In this document: positions 12,898 to 50,641 of the stretch, piece by piece
Numbering within the stretch: position 1 is the stretch's first letter
Layout of the letters: every line of letters starts with the position of its first letter
Assembly (NCBI GenBank): GCA_961205875.1
Contig: OY540810.1
Span: 26,722,001 to 26,786,000, forward strand
Source of the DNA: Sialis fuliginosa
Lineage: Eukaryota > Arthropoda > Insecta > Megaloptera > Sialidae
Length of the DNA: 64,000 nt
Reading direction: 5' to 3'
The notes under the pieces: generated by a model
The model's input: the letters and a program-made list of their open reading frames with translations, nothing else
Databases searched by the model: none
Told to the model about the DNA's origin: nothing
Program-made: the position numbers and the translations under genes

Positions 12898-13087
12898 GGA
12901 TCGATTCACACTATCGCTCCAGTCAAATATTCAGTATAGTAAATACTGTATTGGAGCGTGACTGGACCGAGATCGGCACGATACCTATAGTGTGAATGCT
13001 TTCATTGTTTATTATATATTTATATATGATTGGAACGAGACCGGACCGAGATCTGACCGGGATCGGCACGATAGTCTGGATCGACCC
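12898..13087. mobile_element. TTA-flanked palindromic MITE, copy 1
   Basis: The ends are GGATCGATTCACACTATCG (left) and, reverse-complemented, GGGTCGATCCAGACTATCG (right), with TTA on both sides (12895-12897 and 13088-13090). A 3-bp TTA/TAA duplication suggests the PIF/Harbinger group. The interior holds several copies of a GGACCGAGA/GGAACGAGA word in direct array. A second copy is at 57370-57569. Confidence 0.7.
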
Positions 13088-13408: not shown

Positions 13409-13610
13409 ATAGTAGCTAACTTTTCGGGCTGTTGTCCACGTTGTCGTATTTTTCTTACACTGACGTTTCGACTCTCATGTCGGAGTCTTCTTCAGAAGTG
13501 ATTCTGAAACTGAGAATCACTTCTGAAGAAGACTCCGACATGAGAGTCGAAACGTCAAGTGTAAGAAAAATACGACAACGTGGACAACAGCCCGAAAAGT
13601 TAGCTACTAT
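13409..13610. repeat. near-perfect 202-bp palindrome carrying hammerhead-like motif
   Basis: The left arm 13409-13505 (97 nt) and right arm 13513-13610 (98 nt) are reverse complements except for one inserted base, around a 7-nt centre GAAACTG. Each arm contains CTGAAGA-A-GACTC-CGACATGA-GAGTC-GAAACGTC; on the plus strand the motif starts at 13523. A 74-codon frame crosses it only because both arms are open. Related single copies are at 18196 and, more diverged, at 47119-47149 and 39897-39924 (minus). It is likely a fold-back mobile element or an inverted junction of two element ends. Confidence 0.85.
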
Positions 13611-15250: not shown

Positions 15251-15723
15251 TTGTGTATAATGTGTACTGTATATTTGCACACCTAAAAATGATTAATTGT
15301 GTCATTTGTTTTGCTGCCGACATTTTGAGATAATTTAATTTATATGTATATGTATACTGGTAGTCCCTTTCTGTATGATGACGTACTAAAAATAATACAA
15401 CACCCTCAAAATTAAGAACAAAGAAAAACTGTTCGTATGAAATATTCAAATTTTAAGTCATAAAAATAAGTCGTTTCGTTTTATTTAGTGTCGGAAAATG
15501 AAAAATGAGGACAAATATGAAAGCAACAAAATGAAATGTAAATAAGTCTATAAGAATACTCAATACAACTTTATCTTTTTTAATATTGTTCTCATTTGAT
15601 ATATTTTTATTTGACCTTGTTTTTAAAATGTATTTATTATTTTATATCGAACTCGATATTGAGTTTAGTAGTAAAATATAATTTATTGGAAAATTTCATT
15701 ATTACTTTCCTTTTTGTTATAAA
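15251..15723. other. AT-rich spacer
   Basis: A/T-rich sequence without terminal repeats or credible frames; short TATACA runs sit next to the fold-back element that starts at 15728. Confidence 0.4.
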
Positions 15724-15727
15724 TATA

Positions 15728-16778
15728 CAGGGTGTCCCGTTAACATACCGATACACTTTCAAGAGATGTCAAAGACATTAAAATAATCGATTTTTGTTAA
15801 TAATCCCATGCCCGTAAACGAGCCGTTTCAACACACTGGTAGAAAGGTTGATTTGGGCCAAGAAATCCTTGTTTTCTATATAACGAAAAAAATATTTTCT
15901 TAATTTAAGAATATACTCTTAATCCAGAAAATTGTTGTTTCTATTTAAAGAAAGAATAATAACTAAATTCTTATATTAAGAAAATATTGTTTTCGTTATA
16001 TATAAAACAAGATTTTCTTGGCCCAAGTCACTTTTCTACCTGTGCAGTAGAGCAAAAGTAAGGACCACGCACAAAAGTAATAGATTTTGTCTTTTGGTTG
16101 AAATTTTTTGTAACTTAAGGAAATGATAGTCGAAAGTAAGCTGATTAAAAGTTGTAATGGATACAACCAACGAAAATCCATAATTTCTGGTTCAGGGAGC
16201 TCCCAAACATTCTATGTTTGTGTTTATTTTTATGTTTATCTTCTAAAAGATTAACTTTTAGAATTTTTTACAAAGTATGAAAAGTTCTTAATCAATATAG
16301 AGATTTTTTTTTTTTTTTTATATAACATTTATTAATTTTGTACAAAAACACCCATCCAAAAAAATATCACCAAATTTTCTTTAAAAATTTTTTTTTGATT
16401 CATTGACCAATTCGGAGCACTTTTTATTCTTTGCAATTTTTCTAAAAGTAGACCCTACAGGAGATAAAAATAAATATGTATTAAATATAAATTATTTCGA
16501 TGCCCCCTGAAGCAGAAATTATAGATTTTCGTAGGTTGCGCCCATTACAACTTTTAATCAGCACACTTTGAACTATAATTTTTACACAAAATTTCAACCA
16601 AAAGGTAAAATTCATTGCATTCTTGTGGGAACATTTCGTTTGCTCTACTGTTAAAACGGCTCATTTGCGGAAATGGGTTTTATTAGTAAAACTTTCAGGA
16701 GTTGAAGAGTATATTAAAACAACTTTAACTCTTTTTTTGACTCCTGAAAGTTTGTCGGTATATTTACGGAACATCCTG
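15728..16778. mobile_element. fold-back element (CAGGGTGTCCCG family), copy 1
   Basis: The left end CAGGGTGTCCCGTTAACATA and the right end (reverse-complemented CAGGATGTTCCGTAAATATA) are flanked by TATA on both sides. The inverted homology continues far inward; for example AAACGAGCCGTTT and AGTAGAGCAAAAG recur inverted near 16645-16670. The arms are therefore long and the element can fold back. No coding capacity is seen. It is interrupted by a 211-bp element at 15834-16044. A sister copy is at 48654-49346. Confidence 0.75.
15834..16044. mobile_element. nested inverted-repeat element inside the fold-back
   Basis: The ends are CACTGGTAGAAAGGTTGA and, reverse-complemented, CACAGGTAGAAAAGTGAC. 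Both continue into TTGGGCCAAGAAA and TATATAACGAAAA-type sequence, so the two halves are inverted over about 90 bp each. It interrupts the AAACGAGCCGTTT..AGTAGAGCAAAAG block of the host element, whose continuous form is visible at 49237-49268. A clean target duplication longer than CA is not evident. Confidence 0.7.
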
Positions 16779-16782
16779 TATA

Positions 16783-18190
16783 TATATCAAGTATCATATT
16801 AGTATATCAATTCAGTGATATATAAAAAGTTGATATATATAAGTTATCCAGTATCTTATAATGTCTTTAGTTAAATGTTATTTTATTCATATAAAAATTA
16901 ATATCAGAATGCTCAATTACTCACTATGTATGGAGTTGTATAAAAATAGTATAAAATATACTTTTTGTTTAATAAATGTATGTAAAATTTAATATTCTTG
17001 TAAACGGACTACCTTTATTCGTGAAACATCAGTTTAGCAAATAATGCCTGGGGCGGCTTATATTATCTAAGTAAATTGATATATTAAATTTAGTTATTGT
17101 AAATAAAAAAAAAGAAAACATTATGTACTAACGTAGCTTACAAGGTAAATATTTGTTTAATATATGTTCATCATTTTAAAAAGAAATATAATCAATTTTG
17201 GTAGTTTTAAAAAAATATATATGTATATGTCTCTGTTTGTTCCGACTTGATACGAAAATTACTGAACCGATTCCAAAACGACGACCCTAAATAAGTTAAG
17301 GCTATTTTACAACTTATATTTTCTAATGGAATTCTATAAAATATCATATCCACTTAATTTTTAATTTACATTTGTTAATTAATAAGAAGTAGTAGCCTCT
17401 TTTAAAGTTTTAAAAAAATCAATTTTATTTTAAAATTATTTATTGGTTGTTATTTATATAAAGGCTGTTGACAAATAATAAACCCATTTTACTGCTTCCT
17501 AACGGAAAACGATGAGTGAACATTTTTATCTCTTTTACACTTAACGTTTATCTTAATAATATCATAAAATATCGGTAGTTATCTTACTTCAGAGACATCT
17601 TAAATACTCTGCTTTGGTTCCGATAACGACGTCATAAAAAAGTAATTCCGTTTGAAAAAGTTCTGTGTATAGCTCAGAAGTAGGTATATTTCGGGAATAT
17701 AATAGGTGTTTGTATGATGTTTGAAAGATTATAAATGAGTTAATTTTAAAGATTTCTATTTGTTGTAAATGAAATGGTCATTTTTTATGATTTTGAAATT
17801 TCAACTTTTTCCATACAAATAACGCTATATAGTTTTAAAATTACATGTGTGATAGGTTAATAAGCTTGCATAACGTATCATATGCTTAAATTAGGAAAGT
17901 TTATGAATACATAACAAGCTATTTAAACCATTATACGGTGGAGCAAAACGACAGCGGCCACATTTTCTCAATTGTCAATATTTCCTATTAAAATTACATT
18001 TTTGCTCTGTAAAAATATGAAAAACTGTGTACCAACATTAGAAAAAATTTGATCATACAATATTTGAATACCTTTTTTTGGTCTTGAAATTATTCTCGTA
18101 TAGCTTTATTTTCAAGAAAAAACTATTGTTGTCTAAAGTACCTACTGTATGACGCACCACTGAATAATGGTTGCAAATATTTTATTATTT
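16783..18190. other. AT-rich DNA with a Helitron-like 5' fragment at about 17210-17300
   Basis: The words TATATGTCTCTGTTTGTTCC and AAAATTACTGAACCGATTCC at 17225-17275 resemble the subterminal part of the minus-strand Helitron at 23621-25192 (ACTACTGAACCGATTTC). This is probably a truncated copy. The rest is A/T-rich with no gene or paired repeat; a CG-containing word GGTGGAGCAAAACGACAGCG lies at 17938. Confidence 0.4.
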
Positions 18191-23620: not shown

Positions 23621-25192
23621 CTAGCGCGTTGGATCCGGTGTTACCCGGTGATATTAAATTCAAATAAACATAAAGTAATCATGCTCACCCGACATGCCCA
23701 CCAGACATGACCACCCAACATGCCCATAACTCACGATTCACCGCTAATTGTTTTTTTTCCGACTTCATAAAATTTACACAAAATATACAGAAATTATATA
23801 CCTAAGCTTTGCCTATTCATTAGTGAAAACCGGAATAAAATCCGTTCAGTAGTTATTGAAAAAATTGTGTAAAATTATATTTTCAAACTCCCAGGAAACA
23901 CCAGGTCTTCTTGTCTTAGAATTTGTAATAAAATCAAAAATAAATAAATAAATAAGTTAGCAATAATATAATAATTAATTTCGATATTTTACCTTTCACG
24001 GAAGTGAAATGTTTCAATTTTCAACCAATATATTTCAAAATATGTAATTGTTAATCATCTATTTGTTCGACAAAATATTTGAAAATATACCTAAATAGCA
24101 GTTCTAAGCTGCGACATCATGGAAATAAAACACGACTTGATAAAGATTTTTTAGTATTTTGATGTCAAATCTTAGATTTTCATAAAATATCAATAACCAC
24201 GATACTTGAATGAAAAATTATATAACTATTGTTGAAAACCGCATTGAAATCGGTTCAGTAGTTCTGGAGTCTATAAGCCTCATACAAACGAACATTCATT
24301 TTTATACAGGGTGGGGCATTTAAAGTGTTACAGTTGATTATCTCAGAACCATCGCATATTTGAAAAAAATGTTTCAACCAAAAAATGTTTGGTTGTAAGG
24401 GGGTAATCAAATAGTAATATTTATTTGTTATTTTAACGTGGCCTTCAAGGATATTTGAAGGTCAACATCATTTTTTTAATAGGAACCTATAGTTTTTATT
24501 TAGTAATCTTATTCTACGTGAAAAAACACGAATCTTTCATTGAAAACTTTTTTTTGAACAACCCAAGCTTTCCAAGGTATCTAACAAAATAATTTGAGAA
24601 TTTGAATTTTCAAGAATTTTTTACTCAGAAACCATAAACTTTAGAAGAAAAGTACAAGATACAAAAAATGTTTATTTTGGTCTAATGAAACTTGGAGAAT
24701 TATTCTAGATTTTTTTTAACATTTCGTACTTTTTTTTGTTTTTGCTAAAATAAAATAAATAGAAAAAGTTTTTAAATTTTTTAAACTAATTCTCCACGCT
24801 TTATTAGACCAAAATAAATATTTTGTGTATCCTGTACTTTTTTTCTAAAGTTTGTGGTTTCTGAGTAAAAAATTCTTGAAAGTTCAAAATCTCGAATTAT
24901 TTTGTTAGATATCTTGGAAAGCTAGGGTTGTTCAAAAAAAGTTTTCATTGAAAGATTCGTGTTTTTTCACGTAGGATAAGATTACTAAATAAAAACTATA
25001 GGTTCCTATTTAAAAAAATGATGTTGACCTTCAAATATCCTTGAAGGCCACGTTAAAATAGCAAATAAATATTACTATTCGATTACCCCCTTACAACCAA
25101 ACATTTTTTGGTTAGAACATTTTTTTCAAATATGCGATGGTTCTGAGATAATCAACTGTAACGCTTTAAATGCCCCACCCTGTATATAGAGA
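23621..25192 (-). mobile_element. non-autonomous Helitron (minus strand), second family, split by a fold-back element
   Basis: Read on the minus strand it begins TCTCTATATAAAAATG when the fold-back at 24307-25182 is removed. It continues through ACTACTGAACCGATTTC and ends with a CG-rich tail (ACCGGGTAACACCGG..CGCG) and CTAG followed by T. TC start, hairpin-prone tail, CTAG end and A^T flank fit Helitrons. It is unrelated in body to the copies at 3568, 5362 and 36035. A 14-bp tandem (CACCCGACATGCC type, 3 units, 23686-23728) lies near the 3' end. No coding capacity. Confidence 0.6.
24307..25182. mobile_element. 876-bp fold-back element (CAGGGTGGGGC family)
   Basis: CAGGGTGGGGCATTTAAAG at the left and its near-exact reverse complement at the right, flanked by TATA on both sides (24303-24306, 25183-25186). 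The inverted match continues to the centre: arms of about 400 bp with only scattered differences surround an A/T-rich core of about 80 bp (24704-24785). There is no open frame of note. It lies inside a Helitron, six bases from that element's 5' end. Confidence 0.88.
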
Positions 25193-26436
25193 TTAATTGC
25201 AGGTGGAAACCTATAATCCCATTGATAGGATTTACTAATGAAGCTGGTAATTTTTTGTCTGGATAAAAAAATACCAAGTATCACACGTTAGTTTCTAAAA
25301 AGCTATAAAGAGAAATTGAATAATTCTATTCAGAATCTGGAATAATTAAATCGTTACCTTAAAATTATTTCATGAAATTACCAACGAATTGTTCAAAAGG
25401 TCAAGAACTAGTTTAAATTCTAAATAAATATCTCTGAACAGGAAAAAACAACATTATCAATCAAAATATGTAGTTATTTAGAAGACATTTATCTAAAAGT
25501 GAAAGTCAAATAAAGATAATCTATAATTCAACATCTTCAGAAAATAAAAGCGTTTTCACTAGACGATAAAAATCAATCAAAATTCATACAAGCACTACAG
25601 CTCGTTTGTCATTGGGACAAAAACATCGGCATAAGATAAAAGTAAAGTGAGATATTTTAACTCAATGAGTTAACACCCTTTTTGCACGGTTTTCGCTTAA
25701 ACTCCTTATGTCTGATCTAAACAAAACCAAACAGAACTCGACCATGCGTTACTTTTATTGTTTAAACATGCATATGTAAATCTTCGTTAAACATTTATCA
25801 AATATAAAACATCGTTTTATATTTGATAAATATTTTATTTTACCTTTATGAAACAAAGACTTTTATTGATAACCTATGTTTTTAAGGCAATATTGCAGCG
25901 TGACACCTAAAATTTTAAGCGTATCATGATGTTTTCTTCGTAACAAAATAAAATATAATCTTTTCAGTATTTTTATATGTTTTTATGTTTATCTTAAACT
26001 ATACAAAAAAAATGTTTTGTGTTTTTAGAGTCAAAGCGGACTCCTCGAAAAAAAGGTGGCTGGGTGGTGGGAAGCATATCTCTACTTGAAGTGATTTGAA
26101 ACAAAAAAATTAAATATATTTTCATTTTATAGACTTGTCTTTATCGTATTAACACAAAACAAAATAACGATCTTGTAAAAAAAAATGCAAAAATCGTTTT
26201 TTTTTTCGATGATAATCGAGAAAAAAATATTTTTTTAGATTATACGATAACTATCACTGTCTAAAATAATGTTTTAAAATTATAGCCCGATCGGTTGGTT
26301 AGAATTTCATTTCTGCTTCCCACCAACTGAAAAAACGCGTTTAACGATTTAATAACATTTTACACCGTTCTCTTCTATGTGCTATAACTTCGTAAATACT
26401 TTGAATTTCGGTTTACAATTTTCACATTATACTCTA
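25193..26436. other. AT-rich DNA, no gene seen
   Basis: No supportable gene or element. A small inverted repeat AAATATAAAAC-ATC-GTTTTATATTT lies at about 25799-25823. A mixed patch GGTGGCTGGGTGGTGGGAAG lies at 26055. Confidence 0.4.
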
Positions 26437-27593
26437 ATAGTATAGGAGCCAGCTGCAAAATCGGTGTAGATTTAACAACCGTCTGCCGTTATGGTTTTTT
26501 TGAAGTACTCACTCAGACAAAGCTCGGACGATGAGTCCGGTCCACCAGCTTGTAGGGATTTAATAGATAGGGCCCACGAAAAATACGCACAAAAAAATCA
26601 CGTAACAACCGTTTGAATGAGACGGTTGCTTATAGTAGACCCCAATTAAAGATGTTTTGGATATACGGCAGAAATTTTTGCGTAGGGGTTTAATTACAGG
26701 GGTCTATCAAAATTTCGACCCAAAAAAATCAGATAACAACCGGACCAGACCTGGTGCAAAATGTTTATTTGGACGTATACTTACATAAAAACATAATGGC
26801 AGAATTTTTTATGTAGGGACTTCGGTGCTATAAGGCCTACAAATGGCCAGAATTGGGCCCCAATCTTAAAAATGCTGTAAAATCTAAAATACCGAATGAA
26901 AATTTCTGCCGCGCGGTGTATGCCTTTGTTATGAACTATAAAATAGATATATACCCATGGCAGAAGTTTTTATTCATGCAGTTCCCTCTCCCAGCTCCCC
27001 CAAAAGGTAAATTTGGATTAGTAATAAAATGCACTAAAAAAATCATAACAAATAGGCCTATAAAGTCTTATAAACATAAAATGGTAATATATTATTGTAT
27101 GTAATGTTAGACACCGCGCGGCAGAAATTTTCATTCGGTATTTTAGATTTTACAGCATTTTTAAGATTGGGGCCCAATTCTGGCCATTTGTAGGCCTTAT
27201 AGCACCGAAGTCCCTACATAAAAAATTCTGCCATTATGTTTTTATGTAAGTATACGTCCAAATAAACATTTTGCACCAGGTCTGGTCCGGTTGTTATCTG
27301 ATTTTTTTGGGTCGAAATTTTGATAGGCCCCTGTAATTAAACCCCTACGCAAAAATTTCTGCCGTATATCCAAAACATCTTTAATTGGGGTCTACTATAA
27401 GCAACCGTCTCATTCAAACGGTTGTTACGTGATTTTTTTGTGCGTATTTTTCGTGGGCCCTATCTATTAAATCCCTACAAGCTGGTGGACCGGACTCATC
27501 GTCCGAGCTTTGTCTGAGTGAGTACTTCAAAAAAACCATAACGGCAGACGGTTGTTAAATCTACACCGATTTTGCAGCTGGCTCCTATACTAT
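26437..27593. repeat. 1.16-kb inverted repeat with 483-bp near-identical arms
   Basis: The left arm 26437-26919 and right arm 27111-27593 are reverse complements; read by eye only one difference was found (GGGGTCTATC versus GGGGCCTATC). The outer ends are ATAGTATAGGAGCCAGCTGC and its complement. Each arm is built from a module of about 130 bp: GTAGGGATTTAAT, GTAGGGGTTTAAT and GTAGGGACTT start at 26552, 26682 and 26813, and AAAAAAATCA..AACAACCG recurs at 26591 and 26722. The 191-bp spacer holds another diverged module. Short frames inside (e.g. 26853-27104) are incidental. It is probably a fold-back mobile element or a hairpin-RNA locus. Confidence 0.92.
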
Positions 27594-29526
27594 AAATATA
27601 TTTTACTTAAACAAATTATCAAAATATGTATAAAAAATCGAATATTTTAAATTGTCACAAACAACAAATTTAAAACAAAATTAATTTTAATTTTAGATCG
27701 ATCCGATGAATTTGGCTTAGATATTTTTACAAGAATTAGTAAACCATTTTCATTGTTAAAACAGTTGGTTGTAATTATCGGTGCAGTGGAACAGGGTTGA
27801 AACAAAAACAAAACAGCAACTGGAAACGAAGTTTCATTTTTGTTTTCAAAATAGGCATATGTTTTTGTTGTTGCTTTGTTTCTACTTACGATAAATCATT
27901 GCCTTAATAACAGGAAATCGGTTTTTGACTTATTAAGTCTACTACTAAAATTTACATTTTTTTTACTTTATTTTATTACTCTATAACTGAATTACAATTT
28001 CAATTTGCATAAAAAAGACTAATAATGTTTTCTTTTCTTCAGAAAATGTTTTATTTGTTAATCATAATTTTTTTCGAACAAATTATTTTCTTTCAATTAC
28101 AAACTTGAACCTGAATCCGAACCCGACCCTAAAAAAATAATGGTTTTTGAACCCAAATAATTTGCACCATGCTGAACCCAAACCTGAATCAAAATTTATA
28201 TTTGAACCCGAACCATAAATAAACTCCAGTAATGTCCCTGAATGTATAGGTAACATTAATATCATAATAATTTTAATCACCACTTGTTTTTTATTTTCTA
28301 TATACACTACGCTTCTATACGTTTAAAGTCTTTATATATATAGAGCTTGTTTTTGAAAGACGTCGAGGTTAAATTAATTGTAACTTTTCTCGAATCAACT
28401 AAATGTAAAAATAAAATGAAAAAGTGTTCTCGTTTAACGTTTTAACGGCAGTTTCTATATATCAAATATAAAGTTAACGAATTCACTTTCACATCGTCAT
28501 TTTACAAGAAAATCGTTTCAGTTGATTAAATAAAGAATACGGTGTGTAAATGAATGTAACGCAACGTCGAGCGCCTCGACATGAAAAATAGTATATAAAT
28601 ATTTACATTTATAATACTGAAAAGAAAAACTGTGGTTTTTAAACAGACATTAAACTGCCGATTCATCTAAATCACAAAACTGACGCCACTAATTGCTTCA
28701 GATGAATTATTATTGTAGTGATTTACGTTTCTTACAGTTTTAATTGGAAAGCAGGCGTGTAAAATGAAATAGTGAAACGGTTTCAATAACGGGTGTTTTC
28801 ATAGTGGTTTTGAAAAAAGTGATTTTTTTATATTATATTATATGTTTTTATCTACAATTTCATTGAATACATACATCTACACGTCCGTTGCAAATAGGGT
28901 TTTACACGAGACAAGACTAAGTTTGGTACGAGACACAAACTTAAACTTTTCTCTATCGAATTTTCATATTTTACATGTGAAATTTTTATTTTATACATCG
29001 AAAACTTTAGATTAAATTATCTATCATGGTAGACATGTTGGACTTTCTTATACGTAACACTGAGAGTGAACAGTGTACGTGTGACACACAGATATAATGG
29101 CGAAAATAGTCAGAAACGATTCTGAGAAGATCAAAATGGATAATTCTATCAAAATCCGGATTTCGAAAAAAATCGGCTTTACAATACTTATATGTATAAT
29201 ATTGTATACATTACTACAATATGTATATTTCATATACTTACATGGGTACTTATAAGAAAATAAAAAGTTTATTGATTCCTAAGAAACCACCTTGGTCCTA
29301 GTGTATTATTCGAAATGACCAAAAACAAATTATCAAATGCCAAATTCAATGAATATTTCCTATTACATGCATAAAAATTATTACAATTGAATTTTATTTG
29401 TACGAGACATGATTGTTCCAAACAAAAGTTTCTCCGTTAATGAATTATAGCTGACATTTTTTTAATGGCAATAAAAAACATTTATAATTAATTAATTTTA
29501 TAATTTCAAACAATTGGTTATAACAT
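27594..29526. other. AT-rich DNA with a GAACCCGAACC-rich patch
   Basis: At 28100-28215 there are repeated AACCTGAATC/GAACCCGAACC words like those at 42015-42130; such sequence commonly lies near the ends of hAT-type elements, but no termini are visible. A good acceptor-like TTTACGTTTCTTACAG at 28728-28743 has no matching donor nearby. The rest is A/T-rich. Confidence 0.4.
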
Positions 29527-48247: not shown

Positions 48248-48653
48248 TTATAATTTTAAAAGCATGCATGTATTTTTTGTATAAAATAAAATCCTCATAA
48301 ATATGTAGGTATATACGTAAGTTTTGTCAAATTAATGATAATGAAATATGTTAATAAAATTGAATTAATAATTTATGAGTGTTTTTTTGTTATTATTAAT
48401 GCAAAATGTTATTTTATTTTGTGTATTAAATTAAAATGATTAGCTGTTCAAATAGATGACATTAATATACATTAATAGTTTTGGACGTAATTAGGTATAA
48501 TCATGTATGTGTTCACACAAGCAAATATTTTGAAACATGTGACAAGATAATTAGCATTTTGGATTTAACAAAGCCGCATGTGTTTTTCACTTTTTGGAAA
48601 CATTCGTTAGTTTATATTTTGTGTAGTTGTTTTTGTTTGTTTGCCAAAATATA

Positions 48654-49346
48654 TAGAGTGTCCCATAAACATACCGACGAACTTTCAAGAGTTGTCGAGG
48701 ACAACTTCGTAAAATAATCAATTTTTGTTAATAAACTCATGCTCGCAAACGAGCCGGGCAATGAATTTTGCCTTTTAGTTGAAATTTTTTGTAACTTTTT
48801 TTTTGAAAAATGATAGTTCAAAGAGTATACTGATCAAAAGTAATGGGCGCAATCTACTCAAATCCATAATTTTTGCTCCAGAAGGCACCCAAACATTTAT
48901 GTTTATGTTTATCTCCTAAAATATTAACTTTTAGAAAATTTTGCTAAGGATGGAAAGTTCTTAGAATAAGCCAAACAATATATAATTCTTTTTAGAATTG
49001 TTCATAACATTTATTAATTTATAAAAAAAAATTAAAAAATTGTCACCAAAAAGTTGAACCTTTAGGTCACTTTAGGTGATAAAAAAATGAATACAAATAC
49101 AAAATAATGCATTAAACATTTAAAAAGTTTAGGTGCCCTTAGAGCAAAAATTATGGATTTTCGTAGGTTGCGTCCCTAACAACTTTTGATCAGTACACAT
49201 TGAACTATCATAATAATACTGCTCTTGTGCGGGGTCCTTTCTTTTGCTCTACTGCTTAAACGGCTCGTTTTTATAAACAAAAAGCGATTGTTTTAATGTT
49301 CTCGGCAATTCCTTAAAGTTTGTCAGTATGTTTACGGGACACCCTG
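48654..49346. mobile_element. fold-back element (CAGGGTGTCCCG family), copy 2
   Basis: The right end is CGGGACACCCTG followed by TATA. The left end is TAGAGTGTCCCATAAACATA, with the first bases mutated. The inverted homology includes AAACGAGCCG near 48748 facing CGGCTCGTTT at 49261, and CAATCTACxCAAATCCATAA facing TTATGGATTTTCGTAGGTTG. It aligns with 15728-16778 minus that copy's nested insertion. Confidence 0.75.
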
Positions 49347-49350
49347 TATA

Positions 49351-50641
49351 AGTTGACTGGAGAACACACGAGATAAATTTAATGTTTTTGTTAGTTAAAT
49401 ATTTAATACAGTGAAAATATAAATTTTTTTTTTGCCTTGCAAATCAGAAAGATTAGTAAACATAATGTTTGTAAATATTTAATCTTTAGATAAATTTCGC
49501 TTTCATGAATTATAATTTTGTTATTAATTCCATCGAAACAGTTGAACTTTCAAGAATATTGATAATTACATTTTTTATAGAAAATGTTATTTTTCAAAAT
49601 ATTTAAGAGAAAATAACAATTAAATATGTTTCTGTAATAGAAAACCATCGTAATATATCTAATCTAATTTTATTAGCCGAATATTAATGAAAATAAGTGC
49701 TACTATATTGAGTGACGTATATTTATTTATTTGTATTATTATATCTTTTACAGATGTAGAATAAATAAAAAATAATAATAATAGAAATAATTAATTTAAA
49801 TTTTACAAATTATTTAGTCTTAATATTCATTTGTATGCTATTTGATCTCATTTTTTTTTATTTCTATTATATGTTAAAAATATACCTATATCTTCAATTT
49901 TATTTCTTGAAAATTGGATGTTTTGATGTATTATTTTTTTCTTCTTGTTTTATAAATACTTTTTCTTTGTTATGTAAATTATAAGCTAATTTATTTTATT
50001 TAATTTCTTCAAAAGAATTTTTTCAAATTCGGCCTTTTTCCCTAAAATAAGAAACGTTTAACTGCAACATTATTCAACCAATCATTACCTTTTATGTATA
50101 ATTGTAAGTCGCAAACAAATAAAAAAAAAAACTTTTGAACGTATAATTCATTTTTAAAATGACATACTGTAAGAGATTTCACGCATTAATTACCGCCTAC
50201 AAAAAAGCATTTTTTTGTATTAGTTTACTTAGGAGACCTATTGAAATTTTCTTTAGGGCTGTTTTAACAAGTTTCATAATACGTTCTCGCATTTTAATAA
50301 TAATGCAAATTTCCTTTTTACGATGAGTTTTCCCCATTACAGCATGAAAATGCCTCCGTGTGCTATTGAACTGAACTTCTTTGTGTGTTAGCAAATACTC
50401 GACGAAAAGCCGGAAATAATTAAGGATTTTTTTATAAATATTTTTATAAATAAATGTTTCTATTCTTACAAATAAACCATACATTATTTTTCAAGTGAAA
50501 TTGTAAAAAATGATATCCATACGTATTTTTTAAATGCTAGCTACTTCAGATATTTTTTGCGGACCACAATAAGAAATACATTTTAAGTCTATATAATTTT
50601 TAAAATATATTTGGTAACTAAGCACCTATATTTTATTAAAT
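49351..50641. other. AT-rich DNA, no gene seen
   Basis: Low-complexity A/T sequence throughout. A 95-codon minus-strand frame at 50197-50484 is K/I/F-rich and has no recognisable domain. Confidence 0.45.

Follow-up and report, generated by a model that had tools for sequence, protein, structure and literature searches.

A shortened member of a dispersed family of palindromic fold-back elements in Sialis fuliginosa

Galileo, a Drosophila element of the P superfamily, duplicates 7 bp of its target, PIF-Harbinger elements duplicate 3 bp of the form TWA (or TNN), and CACTA elements carry CACTA/CACTG termini. Excerpts of the Galileo literature give 98-100% identity between the terminal inverted repeats (TIRs) of one copy and explain how TIRs expand by a model based on repair (PMC3573991), and place the binding sites of the transposase THAP domain in tandem repeats (PMC3688188). 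Another foldback, Tetris/DAIBAM of Drosophila virilis, is described in part of PMC4079207 as having tandem repeats in its TIRs, with no coding copy found. A section of PMC10045372 lists duplications of 4-10 bp for Mutator/MULE foldbacks, of 3 bp for PHIS elements and Zator, and of 3 or 4 bp for AcademX; the portions consulted of PMC4168063 (Galileo) and PMC9783078 (aphid mobilome) added nothing decisive.

We have analysed a 1.16-kb palindrome in a stretch of 64,000 nucleotides (the window) from a genome of 392 Mb in 20 contigs. The window copy is a shortened member of a new family of a known kind of mobile DNA, very probably a non-autonomous, non-coding fold-back DNA transposon (a long-terminal-inverted-repeat MITE), and its striking hairpin is explained without any new mechanism. 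Among the top-ranked results of keyword literature searches no description of this family was recognised, although a named repeat-database entry may exist.

Structure of the window copy

The palindrome is made of a left arm (26437-26919) and a right arm (27111-27593), reverse complements of 483 nt each that differ once, at 26703 (T, with C in the partner), for an identity of ~99.8%. The paired segments are separated by 191 nt. A preliminary description of this DNA had claimed 483-bp inverted arms with one difference and a 191-bp separation, all of which was borne out by the arm comparison. The outermost bases of the palindrome, 26437 and 27593, are part of a TAA target-site duplication and do not belong to the element, whose features are as follows.

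26435..26437, unstranded: left copy of the target-site duplication TAA (3-bp duplication exact in 33/35 end pairs)
26438..27592, unstranded: fold-back transposon copy (very probable reading), 1155 bp, with ends TAGTATAGGAGCC...GGCTCCTATACTA; deletion derivative of the ~1.5 kb element
26438..26919, + strand: left arm, segment with its partner retained; single mismatch at 26703
26474..26818, + strand: three ~130-bp modules of the left arm, with AACAACCG at 26474, 26604 and 26735 and GTAGGG at 26552, 26682 and 26813
26920..27110, + strand: orphaned inner segment of the left arm (the former '191-bp spacer'); continues the arm in fuller copies
27111..27115, unstranded: junction of the internal deletion, with ACACC microhomology; ~333 bp missing relative to the consensus
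27111..27592, - strand: right arm, reverse complement of the left arm, without the inner ~190 bp present in fuller copies
27212..27556, - strand: three ~130-bp modules of the right arm, with 5' ends of AACAACCG at 27556, 27426 and 27295 and GTAGGG at 27478, 27348 and 27217
27593..27595, unstranded: right copy of the target-site duplication TAA (exact in 33/35 end pairs, as above)

In fuller copies of the family the inverted partner of the 26920..27110 sequence is also present. Given the ~333-bp internal loss in the window copy, the 191-bp spacer is what remains of the innermost left arm after the loss of its partner, and although the separation noted in the preliminary description stands, it is not a loop. 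The two edges of the loss both carry the 5-bp ACACC.

Within each arm, GTAGGG and AACAACCG occur three times apiece at a spacing of 130/131 bp, and AAAAAAATCA occurs twice, with a third one in the spacer. Such internal repetition, here of two motifs three times per arm, is a feature of the TIRs of fold-back and long-TIR elements. The repeat is a diverged one, with ~62 bp of the 130-bp unit alignable at 77% identity, and Tandem Repeats Finder reported no ~130-bp array in 26300-27700. The proposal that each arm is built from a 130-bp module is right for the three-fold periodicity of GTAGGG and AACAACCG, but the module is weak and AAAAAAATCA does not recur with it a third time within the arm. The three small stems named in the same proposal can be read in the sequence. 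By analogy with Galileo, the modules are a possible transposase-binding array.

The dispersed family and its insertion sites

With TAGTATAGGAGCC at its ends and a 3-bp duplication of the target, the family comprises hundreds of dispersed copies with a palindromic plan of ~1.5 kb, together with a tail of shortened derivatives. A genome search with one arm gave 43 matches (40 of 499 candidates scored), 40 of them near full arm length, the window's own two at 100% and the other 38 at 98-99%. The terminal 28-mer, allowing up to 2 mismatches, was found 389 times genome-wide (204 forward and 185 reverse, a complete copy being one forward plus one reverse end), and the control, the same pattern read backwards, had 0 matches genome-wide; the search for other copies that the preliminary description had proposed has in this way returned hundreds. 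Exact ends, obtained with an 18-mer split on the preceding base(s), amounted to 70 + 44 + 74 + 105 = 293, of which 288 were carried into positional comparisons. The copies studied are not a random sample, having been chosen for their likeness to the window arm or for their exact ends.

In fuller copies the arm extends ~190 bp further, resulting in arms of ~675 bp, a palindromic centre and an element of ~1.5 kb, most of which consists of long inverted repeats, as in fold-back and long-TIR elements. Neighbouring + and - exact ends less than 20 kb apart formed 68 pairs: 31 measured 1440-1520 bp, 9 measured 1120-1300 bp, 13 less than 1120 bp and 5 more than 1700 bp, with 10 between classes. From arm position ~568 several copies have another centre, and we read these as a putative subfamily. 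Three single-frame pieces, among them the element's one frame of at least 75 aa, had no Pfam match; the end sequence had 0 matches to viral contigs. The high copy number, the lack of coding capacity and the narrow size class are those of a MITE.

The exact ends are uneven across contigs, with 52 of the 288 on C1, 4 on C13 and 3 on C14, and none beyond C14 among the 288 listed; matches to DDE_Tnp_4 crowd on C14. Of the four contig ends examined, two (C1 end, C2 start) carry arrays of TTAGG, the usual arthropod telomere repeat, the C2 end has none, and the C1 start is N.

An exact 3-bp target-site duplication flanks the element in 33 of 35 end pairs, the exceptions being L012 and L037. At 106 distinct ends, not independent of one another since many copies contribute two, the triplets were TTA (16), TAA (13), TAT (10), ATA (9) and others in smaller numbers. 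TTA and TAA together make up 29 of the 106, by simple arithmetic ~3 times the expectation for a 72% AT genome. Other duplications seen were AAG, CAT, ATC and TGT, and C is common at -4 and -5 (42/106 ends each). When flanks were joined without the element, 8 of 33 copies had a spanning match elsewhere in the portion of the genome retrieved. Junction alignments were viewed for six of these eight, the spanning matches of L041 and L082 lying outside that set: those of L009, L011, L027 and L031 are ungapped with a single copy of the 3 bp (one base different in L011), and those of L073 and L090 are noisy. The empty relative of L009 lies in the same 64-kb window, at 12916-13048 (94%). These pre-insertion sites confirm the boundaries of the element. 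Moreover, a duplication of fixed length combined with empty sites is what characterises fold-back and long-TIR elements, and, added to the hundreds of copies, supports the fold-back element suggested in the preliminary description.

Similarity between arms and alternative explanations

Clear ends, target-site duplications and a copy number in the hundreds make arm-to-arm homogenisation measurable in this family, and the two arms of one copy are on average more alike, and have more derived changes in common, than arms of different copies. The comparison covered 86 arms, with 32 copies represented by both, arm matches below 500 nt, or with a start past arm position 130, having been set aside. 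The mean arm-to-arm distance within a copy was 0.0238 versus 0.0352 for random left/right pairing (the lowest of 20,000 permutations being 0.0318), and derived changes common to both arms numbered 132, ~6 times the permuted mean of 20.9 (maximum 49). Likewise, 29 of the 100 variants found in exactly two arms occupied the two arms of one copy, where ~0.9% would be expected. Divergence between arms varied widely, at 0.2% in the window copy, 0.6% in L084 and 0.7% in L020 but 7.3% in L062, 4.5% in L083, 4.4% in L087 and 4.3% in L036. With 4 of 32 copies diverging by 4.3-7.3% between their arms, homogenisation is not universal. The inner versus outer position of the arm-shared variants followed no clear pattern.

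The excess of arm-shared changes points to a recurrent, Galileo-like homogenisation between arms, with which conversion after insertion and inheritance from homogenised master copies could both be compatible; part of the shared changes could also come from assembly read correction. It had been stated that so high an arm identity needs recency or gene conversion, which agrees with a window copy whose arms lie close to the sampled-arm consensus, departing from it 3 and 2 times, and with arms that are closer within than between copies. The 99.8% identity of the window copy probably reflects youth, homogenisation or both, and not a regulatory hairpin. As no transposase with these ends was found, mobilisation in trans is what we infer: a transposase made elsewhere would bind the outer ends, perhaps also the 130-bp repeats, and would cut and paste the element. 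The arms may then be repeatedly homogenised through arm-to-arm gene conversion or template switching in gap repair, and similar repair would account for internal deletions, the ~333 bp missing from the window copy among them.

The palindrome might instead be a hairpin-RNA locus, transcribed through and diced as a hairpin into small RNAs that silence targets. A very high arm identity would suit such a locus, and a read-through transcript is predicted to form one ~480-bp stem (-944.9 kcal/mol, a value that comes without a shuffled control at that length), but the single long stem is a consequence of the palindromic sequence, and any palindromic transposon would fold alike. Moreover, the window copy is one of hundreds with target-site duplications, for which reason its palindromic shape is explained by transposition, and Rfam gave no match at gathering score in 25800-28200, two sub-threshold miRNA-like matches both falling outside the element. 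None of the results supports a dedicated hairpin-RNA locus, and we hold this explanation to be improbable, with the qualification that the element could be a transposon and a small-RNA source at once; such palindromes could plausibly give rise to double-stranded RNA and to chromosome rearrangement. Near-identical inverted arms are also what an assembly palindrome or a chimeric read would leave, yet here the flanks differ and TAA frames the element, which makes this unlikely for the window copy, and 31 further copies with both arms, which differ by 0.6-7.3%, show the same structure. The duplications and the empty sites of other copies exclude it as a general explanation, and we give it practically no credence.

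Other palindromes are found in the window. A second whole-element palindrome of 884 bp (24303-25186) is 91% self-complementary along its whole length and has unrelated ends, TATACAGGGTGGGGCA, and one of 202 bp (13409-13610) is 97% self-complementary with ends ATAGTAGCTAAC. An older element of 1.07 kb (15719-16787) is patchily palindromic (65-83%) and has TACAGGGTGTCCCG-like sequence within its ends, and a pair of ends similar to those lies at 48645-49355. In the genome, a decayed Harbinger-type gene occurs in inverted pairs ~3-4 kb apart at seven places (in Mb, C11 6.629/6.633, C6 16.870/16.875, C12 11.059/11.063, C7 9.668/9.673, C6 19.922/19.926, C7 19.167/19.171 and C5 22.938/22.942), as if that family too formed large palindromes; the second copy of the C5 pair is only a short match, and the first copy at C7 19.167 only a weak protein match. 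It is on account of these unrelated palindromes and inverted gene pairs that a wider explanation was considered, in which DNA transposons with no relation to each other would become whole-element palindromes in this genome, their arms being kept similar by continuing conversion of one arm by the other. We deem it unlikely; if true, palindrome formation and upkeep would be a property of host repair and not of one transposon family.

Superfamily affinities and comparison with known systems

A refinement of the transposon reading, possible although we would sooner doubt it, is that the element belongs to PIF-Harbinger (or a PHIS relative), with an autonomous copy that would be missing from the assembly or have diverged ends. 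The 3-bp duplication and the ~3-fold excess of TTA/TAA agree with this, but duplications such as AAG, CAT, ATC and TGT do not fit TWA. A decayed DDE_Tnp_4-like gene (E = 0.025 and 14.6 bits against Pfam DDE_Tnp_4, whose cut-off is 24.8) begins 1.6 kb from the outer end of the truncated copy L072, but its homology to other copies of the gene ends at L072:712. The 185 bp that follow match only one other place (40 of 106 candidates scored), the L072 arm ends, by eye, near the subfamily centre, and of 146 DDE_Tnp_4 (PF13359) matches, obtained with 150 of 189 candidates scored, 0 fall within 15 kb of the 288 exact ends. For these reasons the gene looks like a chance neighbour, and L072 is better seen as a truncated copy with a decayed gene, unrelated to it, alongside. 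The idea that L072 is an element carrying the DDE_Tnp_4 gene within its arm was rejected as proof of a Harbinger origin on these same four grounds.

This proximity comparison set the 146 PF13359 matches and 47 of 131 Harbinger-type gene matches (about one per cluster) against 288 of the 293 exact ends; among the 47, only the L072 gene is within 15 kb of an exact end. One of the five exact-end pairs above 1700 bp, L073, contains 3.3 kb of inserted sequence in which no frame reaches 70 aa, and the other four, C3:34998896-35002830, C5:32229316-32233996, C9:3652001-3654125 and C5:24585786-24587942, have no PF13359 match inside. An ISAzo13/Zator-related Pfam profile gave no match, its control being likewise silent, and a PDB search with one gene piece returned no result. 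The ends, TAGTATAGG, are not the termini of CACTA elements, and a duplication of 3 bp is not that of Mutator/MULE foldbacks.

Taken as a fold-back DNA transposon, the element resembles Tourist-like/PIF-Harbinger MITEs in its 3-bp duplication and TTA/TAA excess and departs from them in duplications beyond TWA and in the 0/146 DDE_Tnp_4 matches near an exact end; the TIRs of typical MITEs are, besides, far shorter than arms of ~675 bp. AcademX (3 or 4 bp) and Zator (3 bp) are alike in duplication length, according to part of PMC10045372. Tetris, as far as the excerpts of PMC4079207 describe it, is likewise a fold-back element with repeats within its TIRs and no coding copy, but it makes duplications of 8-10 bp instead of 3 bp, its repeats are of ~220 bp instead of ~130 bp, and it has three structurally complete copies in comparison with the hundreds found here. 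Galileo shares the very long, internally repeated TIRs and the many non-autonomous two-TIR copies, and differs in its longer duplication and in having a known transposase, whereas the present family duplicates 3 bp and is known from non-coding copies. Altogether, on the portions of its literature cited above, Galileo is the closest known behaviour.
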